Assembly: GCF_964204865.1 (NCBI RefSeq)
Contig: NC_135260.1
Span: 8,184,001-8,248,000 of the forward strand
Length of the DNA stretch: 64,000 nt
Source of the DNA: Styela clava
Taxonomy: Eukaryota; Chordata; Ascidiacea; Stolidobranchia; Styelidae
Direction: 5' to 3'
Every line of letters begins with the position of its first letter. The first letter of the stretch is position 1. This document shows, piece after piece, positions 9,999-49,450 of this stretch. Below the pieces are notes generated by a model. The model made no database searches. It saw nothing but the letters and a program-made list of their open reading frames with translations, and was not told the DNA's origin. Both the position numbers and the translations under genes were made by a program.

Positions 9999-12683
9999 AT
10001 GCCGCAAACGGTTATGCCAAAGTACAAAACGTCCTCAGATGGACTTATGATGTCAGAATTTCCTAAGATCAAGCAAACTGCAACGAGAATAGGTATGTAG
10101 TTTTCCTTGTTTGGAAATTATGTTCCTGCAATGCAAATGTGAATACTGCTTTGAAGGTCTTTTTTTATATAATCACTGTTCGCACCTTCGCGCTTAATGC
10201 GAAATAACAAATACTAATAAAGTTTTTGCTTTATATTATTATAGGCGATCCAAATGATGCGACCTACAGATTAGCTAGTTTTTCTTCATATCTCAACGTA
10301 CCAATACAGCCGAAAATTCTCGCCAAAGCCGGATTTTACTACACGGGACAAGACGATATCACGCGTTGCTTTAGATGTGGATCACGTGTAAGGAACTGGG
10401 AGAAAGACGACAATCCCTGTGATTCAAAATATCACGAACAAGACTGTACAATAAATAGACAAAGACCAACAGGTACTACCGCGGTATATTTGTCGTTGAA
10501 AATATAATTTTAGATTCACCCCTTTAGATAAGTTTTTGAAATTACGCCATATTAAATATATATAATAGGCGAATATGGCGTAGATCAGTGTTTGGCAAAT
10601 AAATCAAAAAATGCGTAATGCAGGCAATTGAGTATCTTATTATAAGCTAGCCTATGAGGTCATTCATCGCACATGACTGGTGCTATTTTTTAGTATGTTG
10701 CGAAATTGTCCTTGGAATGCTAGCCTATTATCAACTGCGTTCCTGGAAGCTTAACATCCGTTGGTACAACTTTACATTTGAATTACTTCCTTGTATTTTA
10801 GATATGCCAACCGCTGAGCAACAGTCGGTTTCTGCTACTCGTACACTTTCGTCGAATTCGGGTCAAACGAATACATTGAATGCGATGGAATCGAATGCTC
10901 ACGAGGTTATTTTTTATTTTTTGAAGCCGAGGGAATTTTAGTTTCATTGTGGCGTCATGTTCGATAACCAATGCTATAAGCATAAATGATCATGCGGTCA
11001 TAACCGAATTTCCGATTCATGTCGAAATCTCAATCACTCTTCCGGGAAATTGTGCAACTGGGAAAATTTTAAATTCGCTGTCACTAAAATTTAATATATT
11101 TCCCTATTCAATTTTATTGTGTTAGTTTCATAAGAAACACATTACAGATTACCCACGCATTATATAAAATATTACGGGATTTCATTTTGACTCAAATTTA
11201 TCCACAGTTCAGTTCGGGTGCGGGAGCAACAAATCAAGAACAATTGTTTGAGACGTTCAATCTGGACCATCCAATAAACCCTCATATGAGAAATGAAGAC
11301 GTTAGAATGTCTACTTTTCGAGACAGAGGAAACTGGCAAGTTCGGAGAATACATGCAACTCCGGAACAACTTGCAAAAGCAGGCTTTTTCTATTTGGGTA
11401 AGCAACATCTTTGAGCCTCGTGCACCGTAATGTTTAAACATAGATAACAATGAATGCATATACAGTATGCTAAACCTGATCATATTTTAGCGATTTAAAA
11501 GAAAATTTCAAGACGAGAGTTAATAAAATCTTACCTAAGGTTATCGATAATGTCATTTAGTATTTGGAAAATATTTTTTATTTGAACTTGCAGGTGAAGA
11601 AGATAAAGTGAAGTGTTTTTACTGCAATGGAGGTCTGTGCGATTGGGAATATAACGACGATCCATGGATAGAGCATGCCAAGTGGTATCCCCAGTAAGTT
11701 AATAAAGAACATTTTCACAACTTCAATTTCCAAAATGTCAACGAATTCATGTCAATTTTTACTTTTTCTTTAAAGTTGTGAGTTTACATTGCATCACAAG
11801 GGACCTGCATTTATAACAGATGTAACTTCACAATTTCCAAACTTAAATCGGTCTACAACAACTTCGTACGATATTCCACCTCCTGGAGCACACGTGGTAT
11901 ACCAGAATTACGGAAGTTGGATTCCGCCACGTCGAAATGGATTCTCTCGTTCTCGCGGCGCCGAAATTATGGATCCGAGAGAAGAAGACAAAAAAAGAGA
12001 AGTTTTGATAGAATCGGCACTAGGTAGTTCTGAATTAATTAAACAAGCACGTGATATGGGATTCACAAACGAAAAACTTCGAAGAGCATTACAAAAGTAA
12101 GTCACAGTTCTGAATAAAATTGTAATATCAACAATCTTGTACGGTTTCATATTTGAATATCGAAATGAACGTTATGTTAGGAATATTGCGTATTGGTAAA
12201 AAAAAAAAAAGAGAAATTATCGAGATTCGTCAGATCATGTTTTCACTACGAAAAAGTAGTTCTCATTATTTTTTGGAAATGCCATAATGTAGGTTAAATA
12301 TTTTGTTTTCATTCCAATAATTTAAAATCTATTCTAGACAATACCAAGTCAAAGAGAGAAATTTTTGCAATATCGACGAAGTACTGGTAACTATTGGCAA
12401 TTTAGAAGACGAAGAACATGTTTCAACGAGAACAAATCACCCATCCACAAATCAAAATTCAACTAACACAACTCTCATGCCTAGTAATCCTGAAGATCGA
12501 GAAAATCGATTAAAACAACTTGAAGAAGAGAAAAAATGCAAAATATGTTTAGATGAAGAAGCAAATGTTGTTTTCGTACCATGTGGACATTTATCTACAT
12601 GTGTATCTTGTGCACAAAGAGTATCAAATTGTCCAATATGCCGGTCGTACGTTCGACAAAAGATCAAAACATACATTTCTTGA
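9999..12683 (+). CDS. inhibitor of apoptosis protein: BIR-BIR-UBA-RING E3 ligase (IAP gene 1)
   Basis: Seven exons: 9999-10092, 10245-10472, 10802-10905, 11208-11397, 11594-11693, 11776-12096, 12338-12683. All junctions are GT-AG and phases match, giving 460 residues. The family binds caspases through BIR domains and ubiquitinates targets through a C-terminal RING. BIR1 is about residues 38-100 and BIR2 about 172-250. BIR2 has the canonical zinc set C213, C216, H233, C240. A UBA-like helical segment with an MGF loop lies at about 315-370. The C3HC4 RING occupies 413-447, followed by the usual C-tail ending in FIS. BIR1 is odd: C73, C76, then H95 and C99 (spacing x18 and x3 instead of x16 and x6), with Lys where the zinc His belongs. 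Start chosen as the first ATG, about 70 bp after a TATA box. Paralogue of the gene at 28,413. It is closest to BIRC2/3/XIAP-type genes, but a one-to-one orthologue cannot be assigned. Confidence 0.9.
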
Positions 12684-18082: not shown

Positions 18083-20985
18083 CTACTGTATAACAACATC
18101 TATTTTTGGCGGTTGCTCGGGTAGGGGCTCGTAACCATCCTCGAAGTCAGCACATTCAGAAAGATGCATCGCAAGCTCATCCCATCCTTCACCGATATCA
18201 GATAAAGTATCCATCAATCTTTTAAACTGCTCTGATGACACGTGTGCGTCTCTTGAATACACTACAATTTTGTTACGAACTGTAACATAAATGAATTATT
18301 TCACACATAGTGGAAAATATTAACTTAGTAATATACCACTGAAGCATATCTCACATGTAGTAATGCTTAAAAGTAATACTGAAAATAAAAACAGCAAGAC
18401 AGTAAACCTAATATTTTTTCTGAACAATATCTTCATAGTGAAGTTTTTGCAAGAATATGATTGAATAAAATAATAAAGAATTCTAATTGACTCACCGTTT
18501 TCTTGCATCAACATAATCATAAAATTATCGTAGTCAGTGATCATTACATATTTTCCATTGAACATGTCTTCGATAAACCTGATTTCTAGAAAATAAAAAA
18601 TTTATCGGCGGGGTAGCTTCTCGTTAACAGGAGATGAACACCAGTTTGTCACAGTATTGCATAGTTTTTTTAATAAATTAACTGAATATTATATATGTTT
18701 AAATACGATCACATTGTCTCGTGCATGCGGTATGTTTTTTCCAGTTCCAGTTTACACGTGGAAAAAAATTTCGCCCAGTTCAGTCGATATTGTATGTCAA
18801 ATAGCCCAATGAAACGGTGGATAATATTTAAAGGTTTATTATTATGGTTTAATAGAATTGGTAATCTTAATCCGTATTGGAGGAGCAATCTGAGCGTCCA
18901 TTTAATTTTGTTTTCGACTGTACCAATAATGAATTTCTCGTTATTCACTGCAATATAATATTATATATAGTAATCAAAAAATAATAATAGAGACACGTAC
19001 GACGTTTGCTTTCTCTATCTCTCTCACCAAAACTGCCATCCCCGCTAAATGTTGTCCACCTGGTACCAGAGCCGGACCCATAATTCGGTCCGTCGTCAAC
19101 TTGATAGCCAGGTCCGGTATTTGGAATAAAGCTTTGCTCTGAACCATAATTCGACATTCCATTGCCCGAATAGAACCCGCCATTGTCCAGGTTTCCATAA
19201 CCATCTCCAGACCCATATCTAGGGCCAGAATTGTAGCCAGGTCCATCGCCAGTCATGTAACCCATCATGTCCCCGAGTCCGCCTAGGAGGTCGTATCCCG
19301 AACCGTAATTTCCCTCGGACCCGTCATCACTGCCTTTTTCGTAATATGGCATAATCCTAGGTTCAGAAGCCGGTCCTGCATATTCATAATTGGACCCTTG
19401 TCTTCCGTATCCTGTCGTACATAAAAATGGGTTGAAATAATCAATAACAATTCCTGGCGTGAATACAACGAATTGACTAACTTCAGAGCCGAACTTTTAA
19501 GCCGGTTCGCTATTTTATAGGGTACAGACTTCACAAGTTGAAATGAAGCACTAATAATCATCGAATTTATTTTGTTCGGAAAAAGTGGAATTGGCCAAAA
19601 GTATTGCCATTCTATTTTTTACGTGCATTCTAGCATTTACGACGTAGATTAAAATATTGAAAAGTTATGCAAAAAACAATATGTTTGTATGATTTACCTT
19701 GGAAGTCTTCCCATTCATATTTACATCCATACTTCTTACCACGAATTCGCATTTTACGATAAGATTTTTGCCTACAAAATACAACGAACTTGAATTTGAG
19801 TTTACTACGACAACTAGTGGATTAACTGTCTTATACAAATCACATTTTAACCCGGTACACAAACCGCCTAGGATACCCTTCGTTTGGACAATCGCGACCA
19901 ATTGATATCCAATCAATTAAGATTTGCTTAATCTTCCAATATATGTACAATAGAACGATACAAGTAAAAACAAATGACCTCATTGATCTTACTTCCCTGA
20001 AAAAGTGCTATGTGTTTGTTGCTCATCATTATATATATATATTATATAGTCATCGCACTACATTCTGTACTAAAGGAGATTATTGTACCGTTTTTCTTAC
20101 CCAATATTGTATTCAATTATTTCGACTTCCATCATTTCATTCCCTCCCTTAATTTTATTCATTCCGAAACATTTTCCGTCGTCAGGATATTCCAAAGATG
20201 ACATAATTTGGTACCATCGGCCTGAAGCCTGCAGAGAATGAGAAAATAAGGACCGAGTTTTGGTAAACACGATGGATTACTTTGTTTCAAACAGAACATC
20301 TTTCCCAGAAATAAAAACAAACAATTTTTGCAGTACGTTGCGATATCGAAGTCTTTTTCAAGTAATGAGCCGAAAATGCCCAAAACCGAGAAAATACTTC
20401 ACTCATCACTTTAAAGTGTGTTATCATCTGTTCTACACAAATAAAAATTTGGCGTAGTTCTTGCACAAAAAAAGCTTAGTTATTCTTTCTGAAGGTGAGT
20501 CCGGTTCGAAAGTTAGTGTGAGCTAATAATTTTTATAAATACTGATCACCAACTGATACTGATTATACCAACGGTTTTTATCTGATTTGTCGAATTTCCA
20601 CAGCGCTTATATGCATTTCGAAATATTTTAAATCTATTAATTTTACATTAAACGTCCGATGCAAATCTATCAGTACATTGTCTAATATTATGCGTGATAT
20701 TATATAAGTTTAATGAAAAGCATCGCATTTATCGGATTTTTACCTTTTCACATTATTTTCTAACGATAATATCAAATTCAAACTGTTTTTTTGAGATACC
20801 TTGTCCCAATCGATTTCCTCCTGGGATGGCAAAGTACATTTCCTTTTATTTGCAGAGTTACCTGGGGGCTCAACTTTAGGTGGAGATGAAAATTCATTGG
20901 TGTAAACAGGTATAGGTGTGACGAAATTGATTTCAAATATTACAAAAACTACTGCAAGCATCTCAAATCGTTTCATGCGTGCCAT
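18083..20985 (-). CDS. secreted lipocalin with a Gly/Tyr/Ser-rich cassette exon
   Basis: Six exons on the minus strand: 20985-20800, 20228-20101, 19771-19698, 19411-19001, 18585-18496, 18279-18083. All are GT-AG with matching phases and give 361 residues. Residues 1 to about 24 form a hydrophobic signal peptide. G65-R-W67-Y is the lipocalin SCR1 G-x-W motif directly after the first intron. T283-D-Y285 is the SCR2 motif, and a helix-like C-terminal segment follows the last strand. Cysteines at 50, 82, about 119 and near the C-terminus fit the usual two disulphides. Lipocalins carry small hydrophobic ligands outside cells. Exon 4 (411 nt, residues 130-266) is a low-complexity GPGY / YGSG-type segment placed between predicted strands. 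It is flanked by two phase-1 introns and so can be skipped in frame, leaving a normal 224-residue lipocalin. Ligand unknown. The family call is firm. Confidence 0.85.
19001..19411 (-). other. symmetric phase 1-1 cassette exon (Gly/Tyr/Ser-rich)
   Basis: Exon 4 of the lipocalin. It encodes 137 residues dominated by Gly, Tyr, Ser, Asp and Asn, with repeated GPGY, YGSG and NYGS units. It contains no lipocalin motif. Exact divisibility by three and equal flanking phases make inclusion or skipping both frame-preserving. Confidence 0.75.
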
Positions 20986-28412: not shown

Positions 28413-31400
28413 ATGCCTGATGAAGTTTTAAGCCAGCATCGAGATGAAAATATAGCTGACGATGGAAATACGTGTAACGATCCACGGGCTGTTAACAACG
28501 ATTTACCGTATATAAATTTCGGTATGTATACATGGACTGTTTTTTTGTGTTGAATATTGATCTTTATTCAAAGCAAGGACCCAAATAACAATTTCGACAG
28601 TAGCCTATATAAAACTAGCTCAGTAATAGAGTTACCACACGCCAGCCAAGTCGCAATCTTTGTACTATTGAGCCGCGTAAGAAATCGTTGCGACTGTGAT
28701 ATCGCTGTGTCCTTCTTCCTCATATAAATATTTAGGTAGTAGCTACTCACTTTCAACACAGATCAATGCCAGTTCAATGAATATCCATCTCAGACCAGTG
28801 ACTATCACTATCATATACCAAAACATTGCCGTTTCCGGCCATACAAGATATTTTACGTGTCATCGTCCTTTGAGCTGTTACCGGTATCCTGTTAGTGTGG
28901 CACGTCAGGTACAAAAATCGGTTGCCGAGGTGGTGGACTCAATTCTATTTTGTATTGTGAAGTACTTTACGGTTATGCAGACCTACTTAGTGTTGTTCTG
29001 AACCATATGTTGACTATCTCGATTAGAATCTGACAAAAGCTGGTACTCTAGAAGTGTTCATTTACTATATACAGAATATTATATTCTATAAACGACCAGA
29101 CTAGATTCAGTGTCAATTTAGTTTTATATATTTAACGCAGGAAATCCAGACAGAGAAGATGATCGCCTTGCAACTTTCAGAGACTTTCCACAACATCGTG
29201 ATTCTGCTTTACCACGCGATCTTGCCAACGCCGGATTCTTTTTTACGGGAGTGGGAGATGTTGTGAAATGCTTCAGGTAACGACAATACAAATTTACTGT
29301 TCTGTATATACCGGTATATCAACAAAATAAAAAACAGGTATATGACAAATAGCTGTTACGGACATTTTATGCGTGCTGTGCCTGTTCTATTGTCGTCACC
29401 TCGAAGCTCTACATAAGCCTCCTAAAGTAAGCTGTTTGTCGTTATCAGGCTGGCAATCTGAACATCATCAGAGAACAGTCGGTTGATCAATGTCAGGTCG
29501 TTAGTCATTAAAAAGAACATATTTAGCTTCACCTTCAAAACTCCTCGGATTTTCCCCTGAATTGTTGTTTGTTCTAACTGAATGTTAATACTGCCAGTTG
29601 GTCTATTTCAAATTGTACCATATATATAAGCAAAATGTTGCTTACAATATACCGCCATTAAAGTTATGGTTTTCGCTTCCCTTAGCGTTTGAGCGGCAGA
29701 AGATATTGCTTCACTGATCAAATCTCAATACGATGAATTAGAATACAATATTGCATGACAGTTAAACTAAATCTAAACAAACAGGATTAATTAAATTCTT
29801 TTCTCGTGTACGCGCACAATATGTAGTCACAATCTATAAGTGACGTTTTCCTGGCAATGATAAGTATGATTGATTTTGTTGTGAAAATATTTTTATTTGT
29901 TTATCTATTTGAATCATTGCGCGGGAAAATGCCGTCCTGTTGATTTATTTTAGTCGCTGATATTTATCACGAAATGTTAACATAAATCTTCGTGTGTCTG
30001 TACCTAATGAGTTGTTGTGATGGTACCATTAATTACAGACAATCCATTTGTCATTGTAAGTGACTCTGTGAAACGAGTAATAATGAAACGTCGCGTCGAA
30101 CGATTTACGTTGCGATTCCTTGGTGTACATCCCTCCGTACGCTGTGATGCAATCTGGGGTCGGTTAATCACTTGCTTAATCCGCAATGAACATCTATACC
30201 TCGATTATTGCTTCATTATTTTATCGTTATTATATTTTCATATAATAATTACGTGAAAACAAAACTAAAAACTATTACTGTAGTGATTGACTTATTATTT
30301 CATTACATTTTACCGGTACTGAAGTGGGACCCGTTTAGATGTTTCTCAACTACATCAATTAGAGTCAGTTGCAGTTGAAAATCAAGTATGATTTGCCATG
30401 TGTGATAGATAAAACGTAACTCTCTACCAATTGCAGGATGATTGTACGCTGAAGGACTAATAGTATTTCTTGGTAGGATCAATTGCTTGATCTTGTGCTG
30501 GGCTATTAAAGTGGTAACCTACTTTTCCTATCGTCAGTTCACTCTTTTGTTTGTGCACTTCGACGACGGAGATATGCACCGACTTTGAGAATAGAATCCC
30601 ACAACATGAGAGATACCGATGAATTGAATTTTCAGCGAAGTCAACTACAGCGGAACTCAGTTGTTTTAGTAAATTACGAATGTTCTAAAAAGAGCCTTAA
30701 AGGTGTTGTTAAAGTTGCCAACTTCGTGTATGAAAAACGAGTTTTTGCGAGAGTAACTTTTGATAGTTGGGAAACATGGACTGATGTCGATGGTACCTGG
30801 AGCAAACCTGGGGATCCAGAATGGAAAACTGACATCTTTGCATTCAGGCTGTTTTTGCCAAAGTTATTTAACGCAAAGAAAACCGAGTTTGCCGTTTGCT
30901 GCAGTCAATGTGGAATAGACTACTGGGACAACAACGATATGGCTAACTACGTCACTCTTATCCCGAGATATTTGATCAATAATCTTGTGTATATTCCCAA
31001 GTTGAGAAGACAAAAAATTAGTTACACCACATTGACAAAGAAGAGAAAAAAAAAGTTGGATGGAAGTAGAGAAACAAAAAATCCACGAATAAAATTTGCC
31101 AATTACGTGAAGTCATTGAAAAAGTAGAAAATTGGCTCACGCGCGTTTATGTGGATAATTTATTTTTATGATTGAATTTATTCCATTGTATCATATGTCT
31201 CTCATGATATTGGTATTTGATGCAGCTTATAAACTTGTTGTATTCGGCAATATATCCGATTGATATATTTTCTCGCTCGTGTTTGTGTCTTCTACTTAAC
31301 GCCTTTTTTCTATAATTTTCTGTAAATATGAAATAAATATTCTTGCAGGTATTTTAAATCTTATCATGGATAAAATCAAGTACAGGTTGAATTGGAATTG

Positions 31401-34400
31401 TTACAGAGCTCATGTAGATCGCAACATTACGTCGTATGTTTTTCAACATTTTATAGTTTGACAATATTCCGTTATGTACCACCTATGGACGAACATAGGC
31501 TACGTTATAAACAAACACTTACACCAGAGGACGGCAACCTGTTGTCGCTTGCGGGCCAAAAATAAAGGTTGCAAGTCATTTGCGGGCGCACATATTTTTA
31601 ACAAAGTTGAAAATCGAATGGATGACCGATGAATCACATTTTATCACACAGATCAGAAGTTAAATTTTAAGCAGCGCGCGAAGACTGACCATTTGAATAT
31701 TTTTTGCGCCATTAAACCATTTGCACTTAGCATCAACTTTTCTGCGTTTTGTTGCTATTTGTCTAAATTATAATTAAATTATAGGCTCATTAAACGAGTA
31801 ATTGTGAATTATATACTTATTACGTTATAATATAATTTAGTCACGTAAAACACGTAATTTCGTTTGCGTAAAGACTATATTCGACAAAACAGCTATAATT
31901 TGTTACATAATTCAGTGAAGCGTCGCGGGCCGGATTATTTTGCTCCGCGGGCCGTAGGTTGCCGACACCTGACTTACATCATTGAGATAACTAAAGTTTC
32001 ACCTTCCTCTATGCCTCAAGTTGATCAAGAAAAATTCTTTTTTTTTTTTAATTGGAAAGCTCTCTTGAAATGACCGTTGATTAGATATCCCTCTCGGACC
32101 CCACTCAGACCATCAGTTACCCAAGTCGCTTCTGGTTTAATCTATACTGAGTCTACCTCGGCCTCGTTCGGAACGAAGTAAGTAGTAAAGTCTTTCTGAA
32201 AAACCTTATCAATTCACTTTCTTATGCAGCTGTGGGAATTGCGTAGAGCGTATGACAAGACGTGAAGATCCACGAGATAGAAGATTCCATCGAGATGATT
32301 GTTTACATCGTAATGATCTCGATGAGAGAAACGTACCTGCAACTTGTAAGTTCCTATTTCACGAATTTGCTGAAACGAGAGAAAATCGCTGTGTTCTTTA
32401 AATCACCTCTAATGTACACTAATTGGCAGTACACATTTCGCGTAGTTGCTCCAAAAATCGAACATGGCAGCCATATAAACTTATACAGAAAAGGCAATTC
32501 AATTAGCGATTGTTTTCATATATCCACCCGTACTCTATCTAATGTCGCTGATCATTCTTTCGCATCGATTAAAACTGATACTATATGATATAGCTATAAT
32601 GATTCTTAATTGGCGACTCATTATGGGAAACGATATGTATCATATCATTGAAACTTTTTTGATTTTTTTTTTCTTGCTTGCTGTGATAATATGCGAATTC
32701 GACGTTTTTTTTATTGGCGAATTGGTAGGTGTTAGTATTTCGTAGAAATGGTTTACTTTAACTAACTTTTTCTACAGATCCACCTACCGCGTTACCATTG
32801 CATAATTTTTTGAGAAACGGAGGTCTGAGTTCTTCGGCAAACACAATTCAACCTACTAGAGAGAGAAACGAAATATCTGAACCAATGCAGCAGGACGAAG
32901 AAATATTTGTTATTCCTCAACAACCTTCGCAGCCGAGCTGTGACGTCGAACCACAAGATCAAGCTGCGGAAGAGCAGGTATTGTAACTTTATTTATCAAG
33001 ACTTAAATATGCCCGCCTTCAAAGGTAGGTAGACGATGGTTGAAATTGAAACAACCGCAACATTTCCGTGGCCGAGCTTCTGTCAAGTTTTTTATATGTT
33101 TGTAATAGGAAGTACATGTCCGGCTCAGAATCCACTGATGTCACATGCTCACACCACAACGTACCATGCGTGAAATCTTGTCGACGACAGTCGTATTCCT
33201 CTGTAGATATCAATTGTATTTTCTAATAATATTCCATCGTGAAAAGTCTATGACAATCGAAACTTCTACATACCTGGCTCATAGGAAACTTGACGTGAAA
33301 TCGTTACAACAATGTGTGTGAAAATATCTAAATATTCAGGAAATTTTTCTATATTCCCCTACTGGTCTTTATAGGGTATTTATCGTATAGTACAAAGGTT
33401 GGAGAATTCAGAATGAAGTTTATACCAAGCAGACTATAAGCCAATAACTCAATAAGATTTCAATTATGAATAATCGGAAATGTCTCTCAATGAAATCGAC
33501 ACCACAAAGAATAAACTGCTGATTCAGTAGATGTGGTCAATAGATCTATGCCGCTGTACTATTAATATTGCATGAGCATTACATGGGCCCCGAAATAGTA
33601 TTTTTTTAGGTTCCGAATGCAAACGCTGAAATAATTCAGGCTTATCATCTTTGGTAGCATCGATAGCCGATTTGATAAATCGAATTTAGAATTTCTTGAA
33701 TTTTGTTCTCTTTGTTTTATTCTTTTTTATATTAATACTATTCGGTTTTATTTATGAGCATCATATTAATGGGATTTAAATTGACTGCCATTTCAGCCCG
33801 CAGATCCAGAACCTCAAGGCGCAGCAGTGGGAGCTTCTAGCAGTGCACCCGAAGAGGAGATATTTCCCGCTTTTGAGTGTTCGGATCCATTTCATGCTCA
33901 CATGGCTGATCCACGAGAGAGACTTCGAACATTTCAAGGAAATTGGCAAGCAAATATAGGCGCGACTCCGCAGAATATTGCGGACGCTGGTTTCTATTAT
34001 ACAAGTAGGTTATGATATACGTTGCTCCGGAAGTACTTATATAAAATTCACTGTGACACATCCATGTTTCTAACGGTTCTTACGAAAAATTTATTGTATC
34101 CTTATTCATTATATTTTGAGAGATATTTTATGTAAAATTTTACCGAATAAAATGTCGTAAATTTTCAGCCTAAATTGCAATGTTTCTGCAAAATAAATAT
34201 ATTAGTATGTATCGAAATCAAATCAGAGGGCAAAGTGGTATTTATTATATCGGACCTATTTATATAGATGTCCCTTAGTATAATTCTTTTTTTATTCATT
34301 TACCATGTATATCCAATATAATATTTCATGAGTCAGTATATAGGTACAACTTAGGTTGTTGTTAAGCCTATTTTAAACCTGGCACTCTATGATTTGATGG

Positions 34401-37400
34401 TTCTGCAGTACGGAAGATGAAACGTTGAATTTGTGTGGGCAGCTTATGATGATAACCACATGGACTGTCACAAAATTGCGCCAATATAACATACATTTGA
34501 AAACTATTAAACATAGTCAAATCATCAGGAAGAGTTTGCGTCATTGAAATTTTATTTTCTATCCATGATAATAAGTACTTTAACCCAAAGTTATATTCCT
34601 ATAAAGCGACATAAATTTCATTATGGTCATAAGCAAAGCTATCCAGTTTGTATGTATCTCCGTCACTTCACTTCTAAATTATACGTGGTTTAATATGGCA
34701 ACTAAATCATTATTGTGATTGGAAATTCGCCAGCACAATATGTTCTATTTCCCTTTAGAAAGATGTCTTTTCAACTAATATCTAATTCTAATATGTTTAC
34801 GTATAGATGAGAGGGACCGTGTGACATGTTGGTACTGCAATGGTGGGCTTGAAAATTGGGAACGTGATGACGATCCTTGGATAGAGCATGCAAAATGGTT
34901 TCCACAGTAAGTGACATTTTCCATAAGTTTTATGAAAATCGCCATTGCGTTTGCCTAGCCCTAGGGCCTAAGGAGAAATGCAAATATGAAATTGAAACTA
35001 AGCAATTACCGACATCGTGTACTGGCCCTGAACCAATCAAATTTACATGATGGTGCAATTTTTCTCAGAGAGGCTGGGGGAAATTTGAAGAAGGAAATGA
35101 AAGTCATGATCTTTTGAAGCTCATGGCGAATGCATCGTTATCTACCTAAAATTTGAAGCGGCTGTTGTTAGTTGATAAACCAATGACGTGCAATTCCACA
35201 TTACCATACCTAAAGATACTAAACATTCTGTTGTTGAGTTGCACCTTGAAACGTTTTGAGAGGCATATTTAGAGATGCTGATGATATAACAATACTATTA
35301 TTTATTCCCACGAGCGAGTTGCACTGAATGGTATTAATTATTACTGTCATAATGCTCTGAAACGTGATTTGAAACTTCACAAATTGCCGTGACATCATTC
35401 ACCATTTTCATATACGTAAACTTGTATTAAATTTAGACGTTGGAATCAGTCGAAGACTGTAATTAAGCGTTTCTTTTACTTATACAGTTGCGAATTTCTC
35501 TTACGTCACAAAGGTCCAGACTTCGTGGGTGCAATTGCTGAGCAATTTCCTGATCTTCCGAGACCGAATAACGATCCTGCTCACCAGCCGACTGTCGCGG
35601 TCAATCCGTTACCTGAACCCCCACCACCTCCACCCGAAAACAACCCCCTTGCGCCTCCTCGGCCTCGACCACCTGCCGATGTTGGCCCTCGACGTGTTCC
35701 AGGTCCTCGACGTAACCAAATAAATTCAACGTTTATCAATATCGTAAATGGGCAGATAATGGGAGGAATGCCGCCTAATGTTGTATACAACAATAACCCA
35801 GAAGGTGGATTTACTATAAATATACACAGACATGGAGCTGGAGGAGCTACAAGAACGTAAGTTAGTTTTGAACAAAGAAAATTATCTCTTTAAACATGCT
35901 CGAATATTGCCGCGTACTTTGTTGTTCTTCCGAGCACAGGATTCTAGAAAAGCTTTGAGGTGGCCGACGTTTCCAAATGCTGGGAATAATATAATACCCA
36001 TAGAAAAAATATGGCATTAGCCGCCGAATTTGAAGTCTTCTAGTTGCTTTACAGAAACATGCAATTTATAATATTATTGGAAATGACATATTTGGTTGAT
36101 TATAGGTAGAAATGGGGTAACAGATATTGACTAAAAATTGTTTCAGCCTACATCCAAGCCCCTAAAACGACTGATGTAATTCCGACTATTTTTTGGTTTA
36201 TTATTATTTTTTTTCTATTAAATTTTTCATGTGACATGTCAGATTTCACTCGCTTGTACCAAGCGGACATGGATCGTTTTGTTCTTGTTAAAAATAGCCC
36301 TTCTCGGCTACTGATGGATCAATCGAATGTAAATTTCCTAAAAATGAATACAGTATCTTAATAGCTTATACATTCTTTGCAAATTTTCTCGTAGTCATAA
36401 TTTATGATGCCGATTATTCAGTCATTCAAAGCCCATTTTTATTTATTTGACCCTCATGTCCATATATTTATTTATCGCCCCCTTTTCCCTTTTATAGAGT
36501 CGTTCGAGGAACGAATAATGTCAGAATAGTGCAAACAGGGGGAGGTGGAAGACGACTTGGACGACGGCAGCAACAGCGGCAAGCGCCGGAATTCGTCGAT
36601 CCAGGCCAAGATGCTGAACGACATCAACAAACTGTTGATAATGCAATGACCAATTCACCTCTTGTAACTAGCGCTCGAAATATGGGTTTTACGGACGATG
36701 TAATCCGTGTGGTTTTGTTAAGGTAAGTTATGTACACACTCGGTTTCCTCGCATGAGGAATCATGAGCATCCAAATATCTTTATCATGAAAATAAGTCGC
36801 ATTGGGTAATTTTGAGTATTTAGTTGTCGTGGGTATTCAATTGCGACGTTTCCGTTACGCTTATTGTACAGTACAGTACACTAGGTAGTAGTAGTACAGT
36901 TCAAGGACAATGTATTTCGAGTATGTTTTGGTTTATAATGACGAGTTTCACTTATTAATAATGAGGATATCCGTCTAAATTTCGTTGTATAATCGGTTAA
37001 TATTGGCAAAATGATCCCACTAATAACCCCCACTTTGCAGCAAGTGTCGAGCTGGAGGCGGAATATACGACAATATTGAAGATTTTGTGGAAGCTTTGAC
37101 AGAATACCAGACAGAAGCTGCAAGACTGGATGAAAATCCGGCTCCTCCAGTTGACCCACCACCAGAGGGTGCAGCGGGAACTTCACAGTCTGGAGAAGGG
37201 GAAGGTGCATCTTCAAGTTCTGAATCCCAGCTTCAACAATTAGAAGAAAGTCGAAATTGCAAGTTATGTCATCGTGAAAAAGCGACTATTGTACTTATGC
37301 CATGTGCCCACTTGGCTGCGTGTGCAACCTGTGCTGAACGGAACATCAGAGTGTGCCCTGTGTGTAGGCAGATGGTGACGGAAACCATACGCTCTTTTAT

Positions 37401-37407
37401 ATCTTAA
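28413..37407 (+). CDS. inhibitor of apoptosis protein: BIR-BIR-UBA-RING E3 ligase (IAP gene 2)
   Basis: Nine exons: 28413-28521, 29141-29276, 32230-32345, 32778-32977, 33797-34004, 34807-34906, 35488-35856, 36498-36722, 37041-37407, giving 609 residues in frame. BIR1 (about 44-107) has C80, C83, H102, C106, with the same unusual x18/x3 spacing as IAP gene 1. The core Trp is Met90 and the expected zinc His is Arg100. BIR2 (about 229-300) is canonical: C264, C267, H284, C291. A Pro-rich linker lies near 325-360, a UBA-like segment with an MGF loop near 460-510, and a C3HC4 RING from 561 with the FIS tail. The 100-nt BIR2 exon and the split of BIR2 into three exons match IAP gene 1, so the two are local paralogues. 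Intron 2 is 2.95 kb and contains a separate intronless gene. Introns 4 to 7 (0.6-0.8 kb each) hold nothing recognised. It should act as a cytosolic E3 ligase and caspase or TNF-pathway regulator, by family. Confidence 0.9.
30606..31127 (+). CDS. PPP1R3-like CBM21 protein, intronless, nested in IAP gene 2 intron 2
   Basis: A single 173-codon frame from ATG 30,606. Residues about 20-135 match the CBM21 carbohydrate-binding domain of protein phosphatase 1 regulatory subunit 3 proteins, which tether PP1 to glycogen. Signature stretches are [12 protein letters not shown] (33-44), [13 protein letters not shown] (50-62), the D-x-F-x-F strand (76-80), EFAVC (94-98) and YWDNND (106-111). The Lys/Arg-rich tail follows. 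No RVxF PP1-docking motif is visible. In the family it lies N-terminal to the CBM21, so this copy looks N-terminally short. The frame stays open to 30,510 but offers no earlier ATG, so an upstream exon joined there cannot be excluded. Same strand as its host gene. A polyadenylation signal follows at 31,332. Confidence 0.75.
   Translation: MRDTDELNFQRSQLQRNSVVLVNYECSKKSLKGVVKVANFVYEKRVFARVTFDSWETWTDVDGTWSKPGDPEWKTDIFAFRLFLPKLFNAKKTEFAVCCSQCGIDYWDNNDMANYVTLIPRYLINNLVYIPKLRRQKISYTTLTKKRKKKLDGSRETKNPRIKFANYVKSLKK
31332..31337 (+). terminator. candidate polyadenylation signal, PPP1R3-like gene
   Basis: AATAAA 205 bp after the stop codon, inside the host intron. Confidence 0.4.
31525..31971 (+). 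mobile_element. hAT MITE in IAP gene 2 intron 2
   Basis: 447 bp. Left end CAGAGGACGGCAACCTG, right end complement CAGGTGTCGGCAACCTACGG, with GCGGGCC stretches at both sides. The flanks ACTTACAC (31,517-31,524) and ACTTACAT (31,972-31,979) agree at 7 of 8 positions. No coding capacity. Confidence 0.8.
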
Positions 37408-37685: not shown

Positions 37686-37821
37686 AATCCTTATTGTAAA
37701 TCTGTCCATGGTATTACATACGGCCACAATAATTTTGCCCTGCCTTACACGAACCTATGAACAAGTACTAAATGGTGCTTATAGCGCCTATCCATATGTC
37801 GTCGACCACCGCGAGGACTTT

Positions 37822-37832
37822 TATATAAAAGG
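37822..37832 (+). promoter_or_regulatory. candidate core promoter, unit 1
   Basis: TATATAAAAGG, a near-ideal TATA box, followed about 140 bp later by a consensus donor (GTAAGT at 37,965). No coding frame starts here, so a non-coding leader exon of the sulfotransferase gene is the simplest reading. The acceptor would be the AG at 39,302-39,303, 11 bp before the start codon. Inference. Confidence 0.35.
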
Positions 37833-37859
37833 CTAATGGGGCTTCTAGATCAAATTATA

Positions 37860-39300
37860 TTTCTCCACGGCCTGAACTAGTTAACACCAAGTGCGATTCA
37901 GAATGTTGCAGAAGTTTGACGGAAGACTCATTTTTGGCGCATGTTTCGATGTTCGGTAAACGACGTAAGTACTTTTATTTGGCGTGGTACAACCATTTTT
38001 GCATGTGTTATTCCTAACCCCAACCTTGCTCTGTCACTCGAAGATTACGTCACTACAACCTCACAATCACGTCAAAGAGCTTGCCAGAGTATAACTACAA
38101 TCGTCCGAAATGGCATCTTCGGCAGCGATATCGAACTCACTTATTAACGCCAGGTATCGGGATCGTTACGACGAGAGAAATAGCTTGCTCGATTTCGTGT
38201 GATCGCATGCGCGTCTTGGATGACAGTTGGTATAGTTTGGAGGACCTTAAGGTTACTGTGGCGTCGTAGTGACGTAATTTTCGAATGACGTAGTCAGATG
38301 GGAGTTAAGAATATCATATGTAATATTGTATTTTTTTTTTGGCCCCATTTTTTTTATTAATGATAGAAATGCAGCGGTAGAACTCATGCCATAGTACTAG
38401 ACTAGCTGTAGCTTTGAGGTGGATGCCAGGTAATAGCGTAGTAGACGTCATGTCATATGACGTCGCCATTCTGAGCCCAAACAATGTAAATAGACTTCTC
38501 GACGAGGACTTTCACAAATATATCGCAACATACCCTCTCAAGCCTTGGGCGTTAGATATATACCAATTACTTACAGTGCGCATGTCGCGAAATAGCTATA
38601 GGTTGACCATGCCTTGTTTGGAAGATAAACAGCTAACAAATTGTTGCACAAACAGCCGTCAGGCTGTTGCAAGAACTAAGCGCTGGTTGTTGTGGTCATA
38701 TCGAGTATCCGTTTTAGACGCCGCAGTACTACATGCCTAATATGGCAAACTATACCTATACGTCATGCGACGCAGCATTTTTGAGCGGCAGACAAGCAGC
38801 ATATAAACAAGCTGTTGTTATGGCAGCGCACTATGCTATTCGAGCACGTCGGTGATAGTCGCTACTGCAAAAATTTTGCCTCGACGATTCAGCATATCCT
38901 TGTAAGATTGGGATTAATGAGTAGAACGCCACAAACCGGCAAATATTGTCTGTTTATTTACTTTGGTGCTACTACGAGATACGTGTAGTACTAGTCACCT
39001 ACATATAGGCACGTATATATATGAATTAGCTTAGTATTGAGAAAATGATTATTTCTGCCGAGTTTTGTAGTACTTTCTGACGTGTTGTGATATATACTAC
39101 GTCGTCCACGAAGGAATTGAGCTGCTGCGTTTTGTGTAGTTATTATACAAAACAAATATACATTGGAAGAACAAATTGCAAATTAATTAAGATTAGATCA
39201 AATAAGTCATGTCCTCCCACACTAATTTGTATTTATTTTTTACTTTATGTCGTATCAGTGCGTTACAATAAGAAACGTTTTAGTTAAAATCGATAAAACG
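37860..39300 (+). other. leader and first-intron region upstream of sulfotransferase A
   Basis: No conserved coding frame. A 108-codon open frame near 38,414-38,740 is disrupted by a transposon insertion in unit 2 and is not considered a gene. The imperfect palindrome GACGTCATGTCATATGACGT at 38,444-38,463 contains two CRE-like TGACGT cores. Confidence 0.35.
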
Positions 39301-39314
39301 CAGAAACAGCCCAA

Positions 39315-42075
39315 ATGGAAGAGAATTTTGCTGAAATACGAGCCTTGTTACCCCCAGAATGCGTTCCCATTTGGGATAAAATGATGAGCATTGATATGTC
39401 AGAATTTTTTACTGTCAAGAAAAAGACTTTACCCATTGAAGACTGGAAAGGGCATAAAATGCAACCTTCATTCAAAGCTGAAACCGTCCGGTTTGCTTAT
39501 GAAGATTGGACGCCAAGAGAAGGCGACGTATTCGTTGTGGCCTATCCTAAAACAGGTATAAAATTTATAGTAGTCTTGTATTATTAAATATTTTTGGGAT
39601 ACCATAGATCTTGTGGGATGTAGGTCTTGTTTGCGAAAAAAGGTAACGACTAGTTTTAACATAAATCGTCTAAACTCTAATTAATATAAATTTTTATATT
39701 TATCCAACTATTAGTTGTTGCGCATCTTTTGCGTCGCAGACCATAGTCTAGGGACAAAACATATTGTTTGGATCGGACAGTCAAGATTAGATCTCCTGCC
39801 GTATTTGATAGTACATTAACATAGTTACCCAATTGATTATATATAAGCACGTCGGGGTTTGTATTAAAAAGGGGCGAGAGACAAGTCAGAACGTAATAGC
39901 GTATAATAAAATACTGTAGAACTGTGACGATCAAGTCGGCAATAAAATATCAATTGTGTGCTGGTGAAATCTGATATTATTGTATTCGATGTTGGTGGTT
40001 GGGGAAGACGGCGCTTAAAAATAGTCGTGTTGGTATGATCATGGTGGTGAGTTAGTTTTGAAAATGTTTTCTCGCATTTTTGCTTGGCCGAATTCTCTAT
40101 GGGTTTTTAAAATATCCGCATTGAAGCCAGTCATCTACCCATCTCTTATTACAGGACTAAATTGGACAAACGAAATTGTAAAACAATTGTTATACTTTGG
40201 ACAAGAACGAGACTACAGAATAATGTCAAGTCAGGCAATGGTCATGAGCCTTATTGAAGGAGGGTGGTGTAAGCTATGTTTTCATTTTTGAATCTCATTC
40301 GAGAACCATGATTACAATCTAATCATCTTTAATTACTATTCTCTAATAAATGACAAGGTTTTAGTTGAATATTTGATTCAATTTGCTATCTTTGTGATAA
40401 TCGACCAATGGCCGAACTAAAGTTGCCTACGGCTCTTTATCGTTTATAATTTTGTCTTTGCAGCTGAAAAATACAAAATATTTGATGCAATGCCATTAAA
40501 AAGAAGAATATTATGCACACATTTACCTGCACCAGTGATAAATGTCGACAAAATCAAGAAAGTCAACGCGAAGGTAAACATTTCAAAAAATGTATTTCAC
40601 CCATCTACTCAAATACGATATGTTATGTTTTAGTTTAAAGAGGCGTCCTTACACAGTATACTCTTTTATTCCACATTTTAGTAAAATCAGTTGTTATATA
40701 TATATATATTATTAGGGAGTGTTTCATATATTTTGGTTCTGAATTAAAAACACCCGTTTTGTGCCGAACTACTATATATATATACTATTTGTTTTTTATA
40801 TTTACCCTGGGCCTGGAAAATTTTTGTCAAGAAAGAGTTCTATTTATTATAAACCATTTCGCTGCTCTCCGAAAATTTCAAGTTTACTGTTTCTTCTTAG
40901 GTTGTCTACGTGTTGCGCAATCCCAAAGATCAAGCAGTGTCCTGGTTTAACTTCATTCCAAAGTTGCCGAATCTACAAATCGAACCGCTAGATAAATTAT
41001 TTGGATCAGACTGGGCTACTTTTCTGGACAGCTTTATTGCGGGTATATATTTAACATTTTTATCTTGCCATTTGAGTAGTATATGACTTTACTTTTTGTC
41101 GACGACTTTGTCAAGCATGTATGTATATATATGTGTGTGTGTGTTTGTGGGATTAGTGTGTGTGATTTCTTCAAAAATATATGCACGATCGTGTCATTCC
41201 TGTGTGCCTGAGATACACTTTTACCGGAATTCAGAGAACATTTTTTTTTTTATATTTAGGCAAAATGCCCATCGGTATGCGTGACGGGGAATGGTATTTG
41301 GACCATATTTTAGGATGGCTACAGCATAGAGACGATAAGAATGTGATGTTTTTCTATTACGAAGATATGAAACAGGTATGTACAAAATTGAGATCTCATA
41401 ACAACACATCTTCTGCCATTTTATCATTTATTGCTATATGTTTAAGTTTATATATATATATATATATATATCAAATGTTATAGAATCCGGTAAAAGAATT
41501 TAGCAGAATGGCGAAGTTTTTGGATTTAAATCTCACTGAAGAAAACATACGAGAAGTTGCCGAGAAAGTTGCCTTTTCGAGCATGAAAAAATCAGATCAA
41601 AAAAGCGGAAAAGAAAATGTTGATCAAAATTTGAGAAATCAACTTGGAATACTTAGAAAAGGTGAGGCGTAAATTCATAGCAGAGTCTGCTTTAATGTCA
41701 GCACACAGTTGTAGTTCCAAACAGTTGTTCTCGCCATTTTAAAAATCTTTTAAATCAACGCGTTTTCAATTTTTTTTTAATTGTTGAATTGTTAATTAAG
41801 AAGTTTATGAGCGTGAGAAATGTGTTATTCTCTTTTTCTTTTAAGTATTCGTTGACTTTGTTTTGACGAAATATTAGATATATATACCGAATTTTTGTGC
41901 AAGCTAAGTTCTAGAATAATTTAAAATATCGTATATATAATATAAAACGTTTTTTCTATCAGGTGAAGTTGGTGGTTGGAAAGACCATTTCACGGTTGCT
42001 CAATCTGAACAGATGGACAAAGAAGTGAAGAACAAACTTGGAAATACTGATATAAAATTCAAATACACTTTATAG
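39315..42075 (+). CDS. cytosolic sulfotransferase, copy A
   Basis: Seven exons: 39315-39555, 40155-40268, 40464-40573, 40901-41042, 41260-41375, 41484-41661, 41963-42075, giving 337 residues. The family transfers sulfate from PAPS to hydroxyls or amines of small molecules in the cytosol. Motifs: the 5'-phosphosulfate loop YPKTGLNW (77-84), split by intron 1; the catalytic-His motif C-T-H138-L-P; the 3'-phosphate motif RNPKDQAVSW (161-170); and the C-terminal K-G-E-V-G-G-W-K loop (300-307). Two positions differ from classical SULT1 enzymes: the loop has Leu-Asn where Thr-Thr is usual, and Cys136 stands where a Lys normally precedes the catalytic His. No signal peptide or membrane segment, so it is cytosolic rather than Golgi type. 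Almost identical to copy B; the substrate cannot be inferred. Confidence 0.9.
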
Positions 42076-42284
42076 TTAGATAGAAAAAAGTTGAAAATGA
42101 AGCACGTTTAAATACAAGTTATTAATATACCTAAATATATGAAATCATGTGTTTTCCTTCTATAGCTGGTTCGACAATATTATATGCTATATACGTTTGG
42201 AGAAGCAAGCAAATTCGGCATGTTTTAACACCGCTTTTGTACGCCCTCAATACTTTGTGAATGTCGAAATCATAGCAGTTAACA

Positions 42285-42290
42285 AATAAA
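42285..42290 (+). terminator. polyadenylation signal, sulfotransferase A
   Basis: AATAAA 210 bp after the stop codon, conserved in copy B. Confidence 0.45.
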
Positions 42291-42443
42291 AGTGTGATTT
42301 TTCAACTTTGGCATAAACTCTTGATCACAGCGCAGTATATGGGTTCGAGGTCAGATGTGACTGCGTTGAATGCTTAAAACCAGGCAACGCAAAGGCGTGG
42401 GAAAAATTGAAGAAATGTCTGTCCCATGACTGTTTATTTAAAC

Positions 42444-42934
42444 CAGGGGTGGGCATCATACGGCCTGCGGTCCAGGTCCAGCCCGCGACGAGATTTTGAC
42501 TAGCCCGCTGACTGTATCCAATCACACTCTGTAATGTGGTCCGACGCATCATTCCTGAAAGTTGCCGATCGCTCTACTCCCACCGCACTGTCAGTGCGAG
42601 CTGGTGAAACAAACAATTGCTTTAGTGAACAAACAATTGCGTTAGCACACTTGTTAAACAATATAAGGTCAAAGCAGGGAGCGCTGTAAACATTCCCTAG
42701 CACTGTTATCAGTTATATTTAAATTCTAATATAAATAGATTTTAGAAATTAGATTTTATAGATATATATTAGGTTTTATTGACCATGGAATATCCCAAGA
42801 AACGTACAGTTGACAGAGAGTGTCGAGCATTTAATAAAGATTGGATACCGAAGTATTTTTTGTAAGAATCCGACCAATCGAGGACTTCATTTTCCCACAT
42901 CTGGCCCGCCGACTAGAAAAGTTGCCCACACCTG
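42444..42934 (+). mobile_element. hAT MITE with a transposase N-terminus relic, unit 1
   Basis: 491 bp. Left end CAGGGGTGGGCATCATACGG, right end complement CAGGTGTGGGCAACTTTTC. Perfect 8-bp direct repeats ATTTAAAC (42,436-42,443 and 42,935-42,942). The copy in unit 2 has the same target duplication, so insertion preceded the segmental duplication. Confidence 0.9.
42785..42865 (+). pseudogene. hAT transposase N-terminal relic (26 codons)
   Basis: A 26-codon frame from an ATG, beginning with a Lys-rich stretch then V-D-R-E-C-R-x-F-N and W...KYF, followed by a stop. This resembles the N-terminus of hAT transposases related to the GTF2IRD2/ZBED-type genes. Everything after it is deleted, so the element is a deletion derivative of an autonomous transposon. 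Confidence 0.5.
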
Positions 42935-42949
42935 ATTTAAACCTTTGGA

Positions 42950-43805
42950 TAGTTGGATAGATATTGCTAGTCTTATAGTTTTGCATTTTATATATAGCAT
43001 TGTTATATATGTAAACAATTTGAATAAAATATAAGCTTTTGAAGCGTTCAAAACAGACCTGCTAATTGACCTGAATTTTTTCAGTTGGGTTTGAGTTCGA
43101 ATGGAAAGTATGTCACGACTCACGAATCTGATTTAATCTGGAGAAATGTTTGCTCGCCAATACACAGGACAACCTTTGAGATTCAGTAAACTAGATTTGT
43201 TTTATTGTACAAAGCAACCTACCAAATAGTAAAAATGTAACGTCATCTCTACTATCATACAACACACAAAGCCAAATTATAATTCGCAATAAGGTGTTGT
43301 TATTAAAGTAAATGGGGACCAGGTGCAAGATGTAAATTTTATCGTATTGTGATCTTATTGAGAGTACCCTGCGCATATGATGGCCCTTCACCGTAATCTC
43401 CAGATAGCGATGTTGGTTGGTTAATTCGTTAATGCCATGCTCACCGATAACAACTGTTACGCGAATATAAAATCCCCGATTTTGTTAACACAGAAACTTT
43501 ATCCTAGTTTATCCATACTCCCTTTGTAAACGCTCGTCAGTCAGTGAAGATAATATTATGATTTATTTTTACCCCAGCAGGAAGGATAGTTTATAGAACA
43601 TCTTCATTTGGGATATGTTACAATTATCTGACGAATATATAGCTGAACCCAAAATTATCTTGTAGAAAACGAGACAACCTTCCAACAGTTAACTCTTTCA
43701 CATTTACATTCACGTAGCCTACAATAACCGTCAATCTTATACATAATACAAAATAGTGAATATTGGGGGGCTAACTATAATGACCTCGTGGTCGTATAGC
43801 TCTTT
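42950..43805. other. non-coding tail of duplication unit 1
   Basis: Matches about 49,458-50,205 with small indels. No coding segment. Confidence 0.5.
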
Positions 43806-43908: not shown

Positions 43909-44046
43909 TATTGTAAATCTGTCCATGGTATTACATACGGCCACAATAATTTTGCCCTGCCTTACACCGTTACACGAACCTATGAACAAGTACTAAATGG
44001 TGCTTATAGCGCCTATCCATATGTCGTCGACCACCGCGAGGTCTTT

Positions 44047-44057
44047 TATATAAAAGG
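44047..44057 (+). promoter_or_regulatory. candidate core promoter, unit 2
   Basis: TATATAAAAGG conserved from unit 1. A consensus donor follows at 44,194. Confidence 0.35.
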
Positions 44058-44930
44058 CAAGTGAATGGGGCTTCTAAATCAAATTATATTTCTCCACGGC
44101 CTGAACTAGTTAACACCAAGTGCGATTCAGAATGTTGCAGAAGTTTGACGGAAGACTCATTTTTGGCGCATGTTCCGATGTTCGGTAAACGACGTAAGTA
44201 CTTTTATTTGGCGTGGTACAACGATTTTGCATGTGTTATTCCTAACCCCCACCTTGCTCTGTCACTCGAAGATTACGTCACTACAACCTCACAATCACGT
44301 CAAAGAGCTTGCCAGAGTATAACTACAATCGCCCGAAATGGCATCTTCGGCGGCGATATCGAACTCACTTATTAACGCCAGGTATCGGGATCGTTACGAC
44401 GAGAGAAATAGCTTGCTCGATTTCGGGTGATCGCATGCGCGTCTTGAATGACAGTTGGTATAGTTTGGAGGACCTTAAGGTTACTGTAGCGTCGTAGTGA
44501 CGTAATTTTCGAATGACTTAGTCAGATGGGAGTTAAAAATATCATATGTAATATTGTATTTTTTTTTTGGCCCCATTTTTTTTTTATTAATAATGATAGA
44601 AATGCAGCGGTAGAACTCATGCCATAGTACTAGACTAGCTGTAGCTTTGAGGTGGATGCCAGGTAATAGCGTAGTAGACGTCATGTCATATGACGTCACC
44701 ATTCTGAGCCCAAACAAAGTAAATAGACTTCTCGACGAGGACTTTCACAAATATATCGCAACATACCCTCTCAAGCCTTGGGCGTTAGATATATACCAAT
44801 TACTTACAGTGCGCATGTCGCGAAATAGCTATAGGTTAACCATGCCTTGTTTGGAAGATAAACAGCCAACAAATTGTTGCACAAACAGCCGTCAGGCTGT
44901 TGCAATAACTAAGCGCTGCTTGTTGTGGTC

Positions 44931-45117
44931 GGTGACCGTACATTTGAACCCATGTACATTTGAACCCATGCGTATATCCACGGGTTCAATCTATATGCGG
45001 GTGCTAAAACCCATGGGTTAGGGTTAGTATGGGTTTAACTATCCGTGAAACAAAAAAAATTCCATAGGTGCAATAGCATACAGGTGCAATTGTCATGGGT
45101 TCAAATGTAATGGAACC
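44931..45117 (+). mobile_element. MITE with 9-bp target duplication, unit 2 only
   Basis: 187 bp. The left end starts GGTGACCGTACATTTGAACC and the right-end complement starts GGTTCCATTACATTTGAACC. They form about 24-bp inverted repeats ending in CATG. It is flanked by the 9-bp direct repeat GTTGTGGTC (44,922-44,930 and 45,118-45,126). Unit 1 holds the empty site with a single copy, at about 38,690. A 9-bp duplication suggests a Mutator-like origin. Confidence 0.85.
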
Positions 45118-45203
45118 GTTGTGGTCATATCGAGTTTCCGTTTTAGACGCCGCAGTACTACATGCCTAATATGGCAAACTATACCTATACGTCATGCGAC
45201 GCA

Positions 45204-45475
45204 ATCAATCAATCAATCAATCGTTTATTTTGTCATCACAAAAAAACACGTTCAAACATAAAGTGACACAATGAATAAATTACAGTACTAATCATGTTTT
45301 TGCGTGACTGGAGTCGCGAGGCACCTAAGAAGGTCTTCAAGCAGCGACACCTACAGCGCTACAGGTTAGAATAAATATAATTAAATAAGGGATAAAATGA
45401 ATAAATCCTAGGAATAAGTCACATAAGTTACAGCGACATTCGAAATGTATGCGATTATGACACAGTAAAACAGCA
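45204..45475 (-). mobile_element. probable 5'-truncated LINE/SINE 3' end, unit 2 only
   Basis: 272 bp absent from unit 1. On the minus strand it ends with ATAAACGATTGATTGATTGA, a tetranucleotide tail after an AATAAA-like signal, as in CR1/L2-type retroelements. No clear target duplication beyond GCA. Confidence 0.6.
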
Positions 45476-46015
45476 GCATTTTTGAGCGGCAGACAAGCAG
45501 CATAAAAACAAGCTGTCGTTATGGCAGCGTACTATGCTATTCGAGCACGTCGGTGATAGTCGCTACTGCAAAAATTTTGCCTCGACGATTCAGCATATCC
45601 GTGTAAGATTGGGATTCATGAGTAGAACGCCACAAACCGGCAAATATTGTCTGTTTATTTACTTTGGTGCTACTACGAGATACGTGTAGTACTAGTCACC
45701 TACATATAGGCACGTATATATATGAATTAGCTTAGTATTGAGAAAATGATTATTTCTGCCGAGTTTTGTAGTACTTTCTGACGTGTTGTGATGTATACTA
45801 CGTCGTCCACGAAGGAATTGAGCTGCTGCGTTTTGTGTAGTTATTATACAAAACAAATATACATTGGAAGAACAAATTGCAAATTAATTAAGATTAGATC
45901 AAATAAGTCATGTCCTCCCACACTAATTTGTATTTATTTTTTACTTTATGTCGTATCAGTGCGTTACAATAAGAAACGTTTTAGTTAAAATCGATAAAAC
46001 GCAGAAACAGCCCAA

Positions 46016-48578: not shown

Positions 48579-48787
48579 TTAGATAGAAAAAAGTTGAAAA
48601 TGAAGCACGTTTAAATACAAGTTATTAATATACCTAAATATATGAAATCATGTGTTTTCCTTCTATAGCTGGTTCGACAATATTATATGCTATATACGTT
48701 TGGAGAAGCAAGCAAATTCGGCATGTTTTAACACCGCTTTTGTACGCCCTCAATACTTTGTGAATGTCAAAATCATAGCAGTTAACA

Positions 48788-48793
48788 AATAAA
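48788..48793 (+). terminator. polyadenylation signal, sulfotransferase B
   Basis: AATAAA 210 bp after the stop codon, as in copy A. Confidence 0.45.
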
Positions 48794-48946
48794 AGTGTGA
48801 TTTTTCAACTTTGGCATAAACTCTTGATCACAGCGCAGTATATGGGTTCGAGGTCAGATGTGACTGCGTTGAATGCTTAAAACCAGGCAACGCAAAGGCG
48901 TGGGAAAAATTGAAGAAATGTCTGTCCCATGACTGTTTATTTAAAC

Positions 48947-49442
48947 CAGGGGTGGGCATCATACGGCCCGCGGTCCAGGTCCAGCCCGCGACGAGATTTT
49001 GACTAGCCCGCTGACTGTATCCAACCACACTATGTAATGTGATCCGACGCATCATTCCTGAAAGTTGCCGATCGCTCTACTCCCACCGCACTGTCAGTGC
49101 GAGCTGGTGAAACAAACAATTGCTTTAGTGAACAAACAATTGCGTTAGCACACTTGTTAAACAAACAATATAAGGTCAAAGCAGGGAGCGTTGTAAACAT
49201 TCCCTAGCACTGTTATCAGTCATATTTAAATTCTAAATATAAATAGATTTTAGAAATTAGATTTTATAGATATATATTAGGTTTTATTGACCATGGAATA
49301 TCCCAAGAAACGTACAGTTGACAGAGAGTGTCGAGCATTTAATAAAGATTGGATACCGAAGTATTTTTTGTAAGAATCCGACCAATCGAGGACTTCATTT
49401 TCCCACATCTGGCCCGCCGACTAGAAAAGTTGCCCACACCGG
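48947..49442 (+). mobile_element. hAT MITE with a transposase relic, unit 2
   Basis: Duplicate of the element at 42,444-42,934, with the same ATTTAAAC target duplication (48,939-48,946 and 49,443-49,450). One terminal base has changed (CACACCGG instead of CACACCTG). The 26-codon transposase relic is intact at 49,293-49,373. Confidence 0.88.
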
Positions 49443-49450
49443 ATTTAAAC

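Follow-up and report, generated by a model that had tools for sequence, protein, structure and literature searches.

The lipocalin-like gene on the minus strand at positions 18083 to 20985 of the window, the stretch of 64,000 nucleotides analyzed here, most likely encodes a protein of 352 residues with a 128-residue insert rich in Gly, Ser and Tyr. The evidence speaks for a divergent, ApoD-like lipocalin as the remaining part of this protein, and for the insert, constitutive inclusion is favored over regulated skipping. The gene was rebuilt from the window sequence and has six coding exons. Coding exon 1 (20800 to 20985; 186 nt) contains the start codon, a hydrophobic N-terminus that is likely a signal peptide, a linker and the first Cys, and ends in phase 0. 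Exon 2 (20101 to 20228; 128 nt) starts with the GxW motif (GRWYQ), includes Cys82 and ends in phase 2. Exon 3 (19698 to 19771; 74 nt) includes Cys121, ends in phase 1, and its 3' end encodes ...EWEDFQ. Exon 4, with a revised 3' end (19028 to 19411; 384 nt), encodes the acidic, low-complexity insert and has phase 1 at both ends. Exon 5 (18496 to 18585; 90 nt), also with phase 1 at both ends, encodes the TDY motif (ITDYDNF). Exon 6 (18083 to 18279; 197 nt) encodes the C-terminal region with the last Cys and the stop codon. The introns are of the GT-AG type, the phases of the full gene are 0, 2, 1, 1 and 1, and the spliced frame is open.

The junctions proposed in the earlier, sequence-only reading are all present in the sequence and yield an open spliced reading frame. 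With exon 4 as defined there, the predicted translation is 361 residues long. Translation without exon 4 gives 224 residues, in agreement with the lipocalin of that length predicted for its omission. The 3' end of exon 4 needs revision. Splice sites were scored with an approximate matrix and ranked against all GT or AG sites on the strand. The donor at which exon 4 was thought to end (CGTC/GTACGT, exon end 19001) has a matrix score of -2.0, and 23.8% of the GT sites on the strand score higher. Another donor (TTG/GTGAGA, exon end 19028) is located 27 nt upstream, leaves the phase unchanged and has a score of 3.06. The remaining four donors have scores of 2.02, 3.51, 5.50 and 5.84, where 5.50 is the donor of exon 3. 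The U1 duplex energy is -1.7 kcal/mol for the donor at 19001 and -8.1 kcal/mol for that at 19028. Energies of -8 kcal/mol or below are observed in 0.95% of 3374 GT sites. The donors of exons 1, 2, 3 and 5 show -5.7, -9.2, -6.8 and -9.0 kcal/mol, respectively, and the donor at 19028 is third of the five by U1 energy and fourth of the five by matrix score.

Because the donor at 19001 is weak, and because that at 19028 is strong and keeps the frame, exon 4 most likely corresponds to 19411 to 19028, and the insert to residues 130 to 257. The 27 nt counted in exon 4 by the sequence-only reading (19001 to 19027, minus strand) are most likely intronic. There is one observation in favor of the donor at 19001: only the 361-residue form passes the Lipocalin_2 cut-off of Pfam (26.3 bits), with a match at residues 246 to 330 that spans the nine disputed residues. 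The donor at 19001 was set aside on matrix score and U1 energy despite this Pfam score, and both donors may be in use. The segment had been described as 137 residues encoded by exactly one exon between two phase-1 introns. The in-frame exon rich in Gly, Tyr and Ser and the phases of its introns stand; the exon end is moved from 19001 to 19028, and the length is most likely 128 residues. A dibasic KR at the end of the insert in the 361-residue model was also evaluated as a possible processing site; it was discarded because it is located in the 27 probably intronic nucleotides.

Exon 4 looks like real coding sequence. The insert contains 34 Gly, and Gly, Tyr and Ser together account for 64 of its 128 residues. 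When exon 4 was shuffled with its dinucleotides preserved, none of 5000 shuffles reached the Gly count, none of 5000 reached the Gly+Tyr+Ser count, and 9 of 5000 were free of stops. The other two sense frames contain 3 and 8 stops, and the three antisense frames 5, 2 and 11. The GC content of exon 4, calculated with the edges of the sequence-only reading, is 0.496, compared with 0.300 to 0.426 in the other five exons and 0.255 to 0.331 in the five introns. No tandem nucleotide repeat was found in exon 4 at the default score. Tetrapeptides that occur more than once in the insert (NYGS, YGSG, GPGY and SGDG) form eight pairs, some of which overlap and are not independent; all eight differ at one to four codons. 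The Ser codons in the four copies of YGS are TCG, TCT, TCA and TCC. In an internal repeat aligned by hand over 15 positions, 5 of the 11 identical residues are encoded by different codons. These codon differences suggest that the motif is kept as protein and is not a young DNA repeat. They suggest, weakly and within the one sequence compared, that the repeated motifs are under selection at the protein level. A chance open frame or a simple nucleotide repeat as the origin of exon 4 was rejected on the basis of the shuffles, the repeat scan and the codon differences.

Lipocalins, which fold into a barrel of eight strands, are recognized by a GxW motif near the mature N-terminus and a TDY motif; both motifs are found here. 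Four Cys are located at 50, 82, 121 and 330 in the numbering of the 352-residue form. In the Pfam search, the form without the insert matched Lipocalin_2 (E 2e-4; 21.7 bits against a curated cut-off of 24) and Lipocalin (E 0.0035; 18.0 bits against 23), besides two weaker and unrelated matches (E 0.099 and 0.21). The revised 352-residue form scored 21.1 bits for Lipocalin_2 against the cut-off of 24. The best PDB match is to human ApoD (2hzq) and is weak (E 0.025); Sandercyanin sequences account for the other seven of the eight PDB matches listed (E 0.063 to 0.15). The assignment to divergent lipocalins is based on GxW, TDY, the four Cys, the hydrophobic N-terminus and ApoD as the top PDB match. 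The Pfam scores do not clearly reach the curated cut-offs. Judged by its hydrophobic N-terminus, the lipocalin is probably secreted.

Without exon 4, the intron phases are 0, 2, 1 and 1, an order that may correspond to that of lipocalins at large. In tick lipocalins, intron positions and phase are described as conserved (PMC3695081). According to PMC8530192, ApoD consists of a single domain, and its gene has four coding exons in chordates. The present gene product shares GxW, TDY, four Cys and likely secretion with ApoD-like lipocalins, whereas these lack its 128-residue Gly/Ser/Tyr-rich insert. The position of one Cys is also different. The third Cys is located in the region of strand D (YGCKYEW) and the strand after TDY contains no Cys, whereas ApoD sequences carry a Cys in the strand after TDY. 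Because the third Cys is in a strand other than that in ApoD, one of the disulfides may have an unusual pairing.

In the alignment with ApoD, which is a weak match, the insertion point falls at AKL/EVKF. In the naming of lipocalin strands, this point would be the D-E hairpin, on the closed side of the barrel and remote from the ligand entrance. On this weak alignment, the insert is predicted to lie in the loop between strands D and E, where it is probably disordered. It is acidic (pI 4.05) and hydrophilic (GRAVY -0.98), and 15.6% of its residues are aromatic. The insert matched neither Pfam families nor PDB sequences at E up to 1, so any view of its role is based on composition. This composition would be consistent with an adhesive, matrix or phase-separating role. 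Arthropods have Gly/Tyr-rich proteins of cuticle, silk and cement that are also rich in Gly, Tyr and Ser and may resemble the insert in motifs similar to GPGY and YGSG. These are whole structural proteins, whereas the present segment would form a loop within a globular protein.

We tentatively propose, giving it slightly less than an even chance, that the insert is a constitutive, disordered D-E loop on a secreted ApoD-like lipocalin and acts as a matrix tether. Exon 4 would most likely be included in the ordinary mRNA. The barrel would retain its ligand cup and carry the disordered acidic loop at its closed end. In a more speculative step, the loop would act as a tether and, by weak multivalent Tyr/Gly contacts or by Tyr cross-linking, hold the carrier in extracellular matrix, cuticle or secretion. 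The Pfam scores below the curated cut-offs, both without the insert and for the 352-residue form, count against this proposal. If the insert does tether, one added exon would turn a soluble carrier of lipid or pigment into a fixed depot and leave the binding cup untouched. Barrel loops with phase-1 introns would then offer natural entry points for additions of this kind.

A serious rival to the tether, if in our judgment an unlikely one, is neutral growth of the loop. It has the same anatomy and differs in function: the insert would be a lineage-specific, low-complexity loop that the closed end of the barrel tolerates and that has no function of its own. Loop inserts are often tolerated. The insert contains no recognized domain and has short internal repeats such as GPGY...GP.YGSG, which is in favor of this origin. 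The internal repeat speaks against it, weakly and from one sequence, as the amino acid motifs are kept while the codons differ for 5 of the 11 identical residues. If the expansion is neutral, this would be an ordinary case of a tolerant loop lengthened by low-complexity sequence. Far less probable than either is that exon 4 does not belong to the lipocalin mRNA and is an unused open stretch or an exon of another transcript. The lipocalin is complete without exon 4, and a frame with its own ATG (135 codons; 19352 to 18945) passes through it. The plausible splice sites at both ends, the matching phases, the raised GC content, the repeated motifs with differing codons and the extreme composition make this reading very improbable.

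The sequence-only reading regarded exon 4 as skippable, that is, as a regulated cassette whose skipping and inclusion yield a soluble lipocalin of 224 residues and a longer, matrix-prone form. This is consistent with the two flanking phase-1 introns and with the intact lipocalin left after skipping. The strong donor of exon 3 (5.50) and the strong acceptor of exon 5 (7.96) could join directly, and the acceptor of exon 4 is the lowest-scoring of the five by a small margin (5.10; the others 5.30 to 7.96); both points also weigh against constitutive inclusion. The exon 4 acceptor ranks in the best 1.7% of the AG sites on the strand. Of the four internal exons, both exon 4 and exon 5 could be omitted with no frameshift, although loss of exon 5 would delete the TDY motif. 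Because exon 5, which bears this motif, is equally symmetric, phase symmetry says little about skipping. By matrix score as well as by U1 energy, the corrected donor of exon 4 falls among the values of the other donors. The optional nature of the exon had been deduced from phase symmetry alone and is not upheld, as exon 5 has the same 1-1 phases and the splice sites of exon 4 score inside the range of the other exons or close to it. The differences between splice sites are too small to separate skipping from constitutive inclusion. Regulated skipping of exon 4 appears unlikely to us, and we favor its constitutive inclusion. In a further version of this reading, which is quite improbable, exon 4 would be a regulated cassette in the closed-end loop, and one gene would give a free ligand carrier as well as one that self-associates or is bound to matrix, both with the same cup. 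Such a splice switch would set where lipid or pigment cargo is deposited.

A lipocalin with a matrix-like insert had been considered a new architecture. Among the titles and abstract openings listed in literature searches on Gly-rich or low-complexity segments in lipocalins, none describes an insert of this kind. In the main text of PMC8214410, on arthropod lipocalins, the words insertion, glycine, exon and intron do not occur. The novelty of the Gly/Tyr/Ser-rich loop insert is softened by a precedent in C. elegans. According to PMC12848578, LPR-3 is a lipocalin that is held in the apical matrix by an additional, matrix-targeting domain. LPR-3 thus makes the idea of a tether more plausible and less new. 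In LPR-3, the extra domain is N-terminal, whereas the present protein would have its additional segment in an internal loop, and its matrix location is hypothetical. LPR-1 and LPR-3 of C. elegans are lipocalins of the apical matrix, whereas matrix association is here proposed from composition.

A tandem array of lipocalin genes nearby was rejected, as the window and 18 flanking 10-kb stretches gave, outside the gene itself, no match below E 1.8 with phmmer. With tblastn, the same window and flanking stretches gave nothing below E 2.7 outside the lipocalin gene. A scan of viral contigs yielded two stretches that fit a pattern, neither of which is a relative. A search of the genome of the same species (376.6 Mb, 379 contigs) with PF00061 returned no match at E <= 0.001. 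This null result is uninformative, because exons are matched singly and the present gene was missed as well.

Among ten neighboring frames compared with Pfam, eight showed a match and two did not; the families are BIR, RING, TPMT (twice), CBM21, RBM22 zinc finger, MORN and Tc5 transposase. An inhibitor-of-apoptosis-like gene, with BIR and RING domains matched in its frames, is located at 10208 to 12680 of the window on the plus strand. A second one, similar by eye, is located at 33785 to 37404 on the same strand. A tandem duplication is observed between 37692 to 43499 and 43909 to 50014, where three blocks (1.0, 1.1 and 3.4 kb) are 96.5 to 99.4% identical. Each copy contains a frame that we take to resemble the start of a sulfotransferase; this frame, examined in one copy, showed no Pfam match at E 0.01. 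On the plus strand, an uninterrupted frame of 205 residues (30510 to 31124) encodes a starch/glycogen-binding module of the CBM21 family and may correspond to a glycogen-targeting phosphatase subunit. At 51980, on the minus strand, a frame encodes the DNA-binding domain of a Tc5-type transposase.
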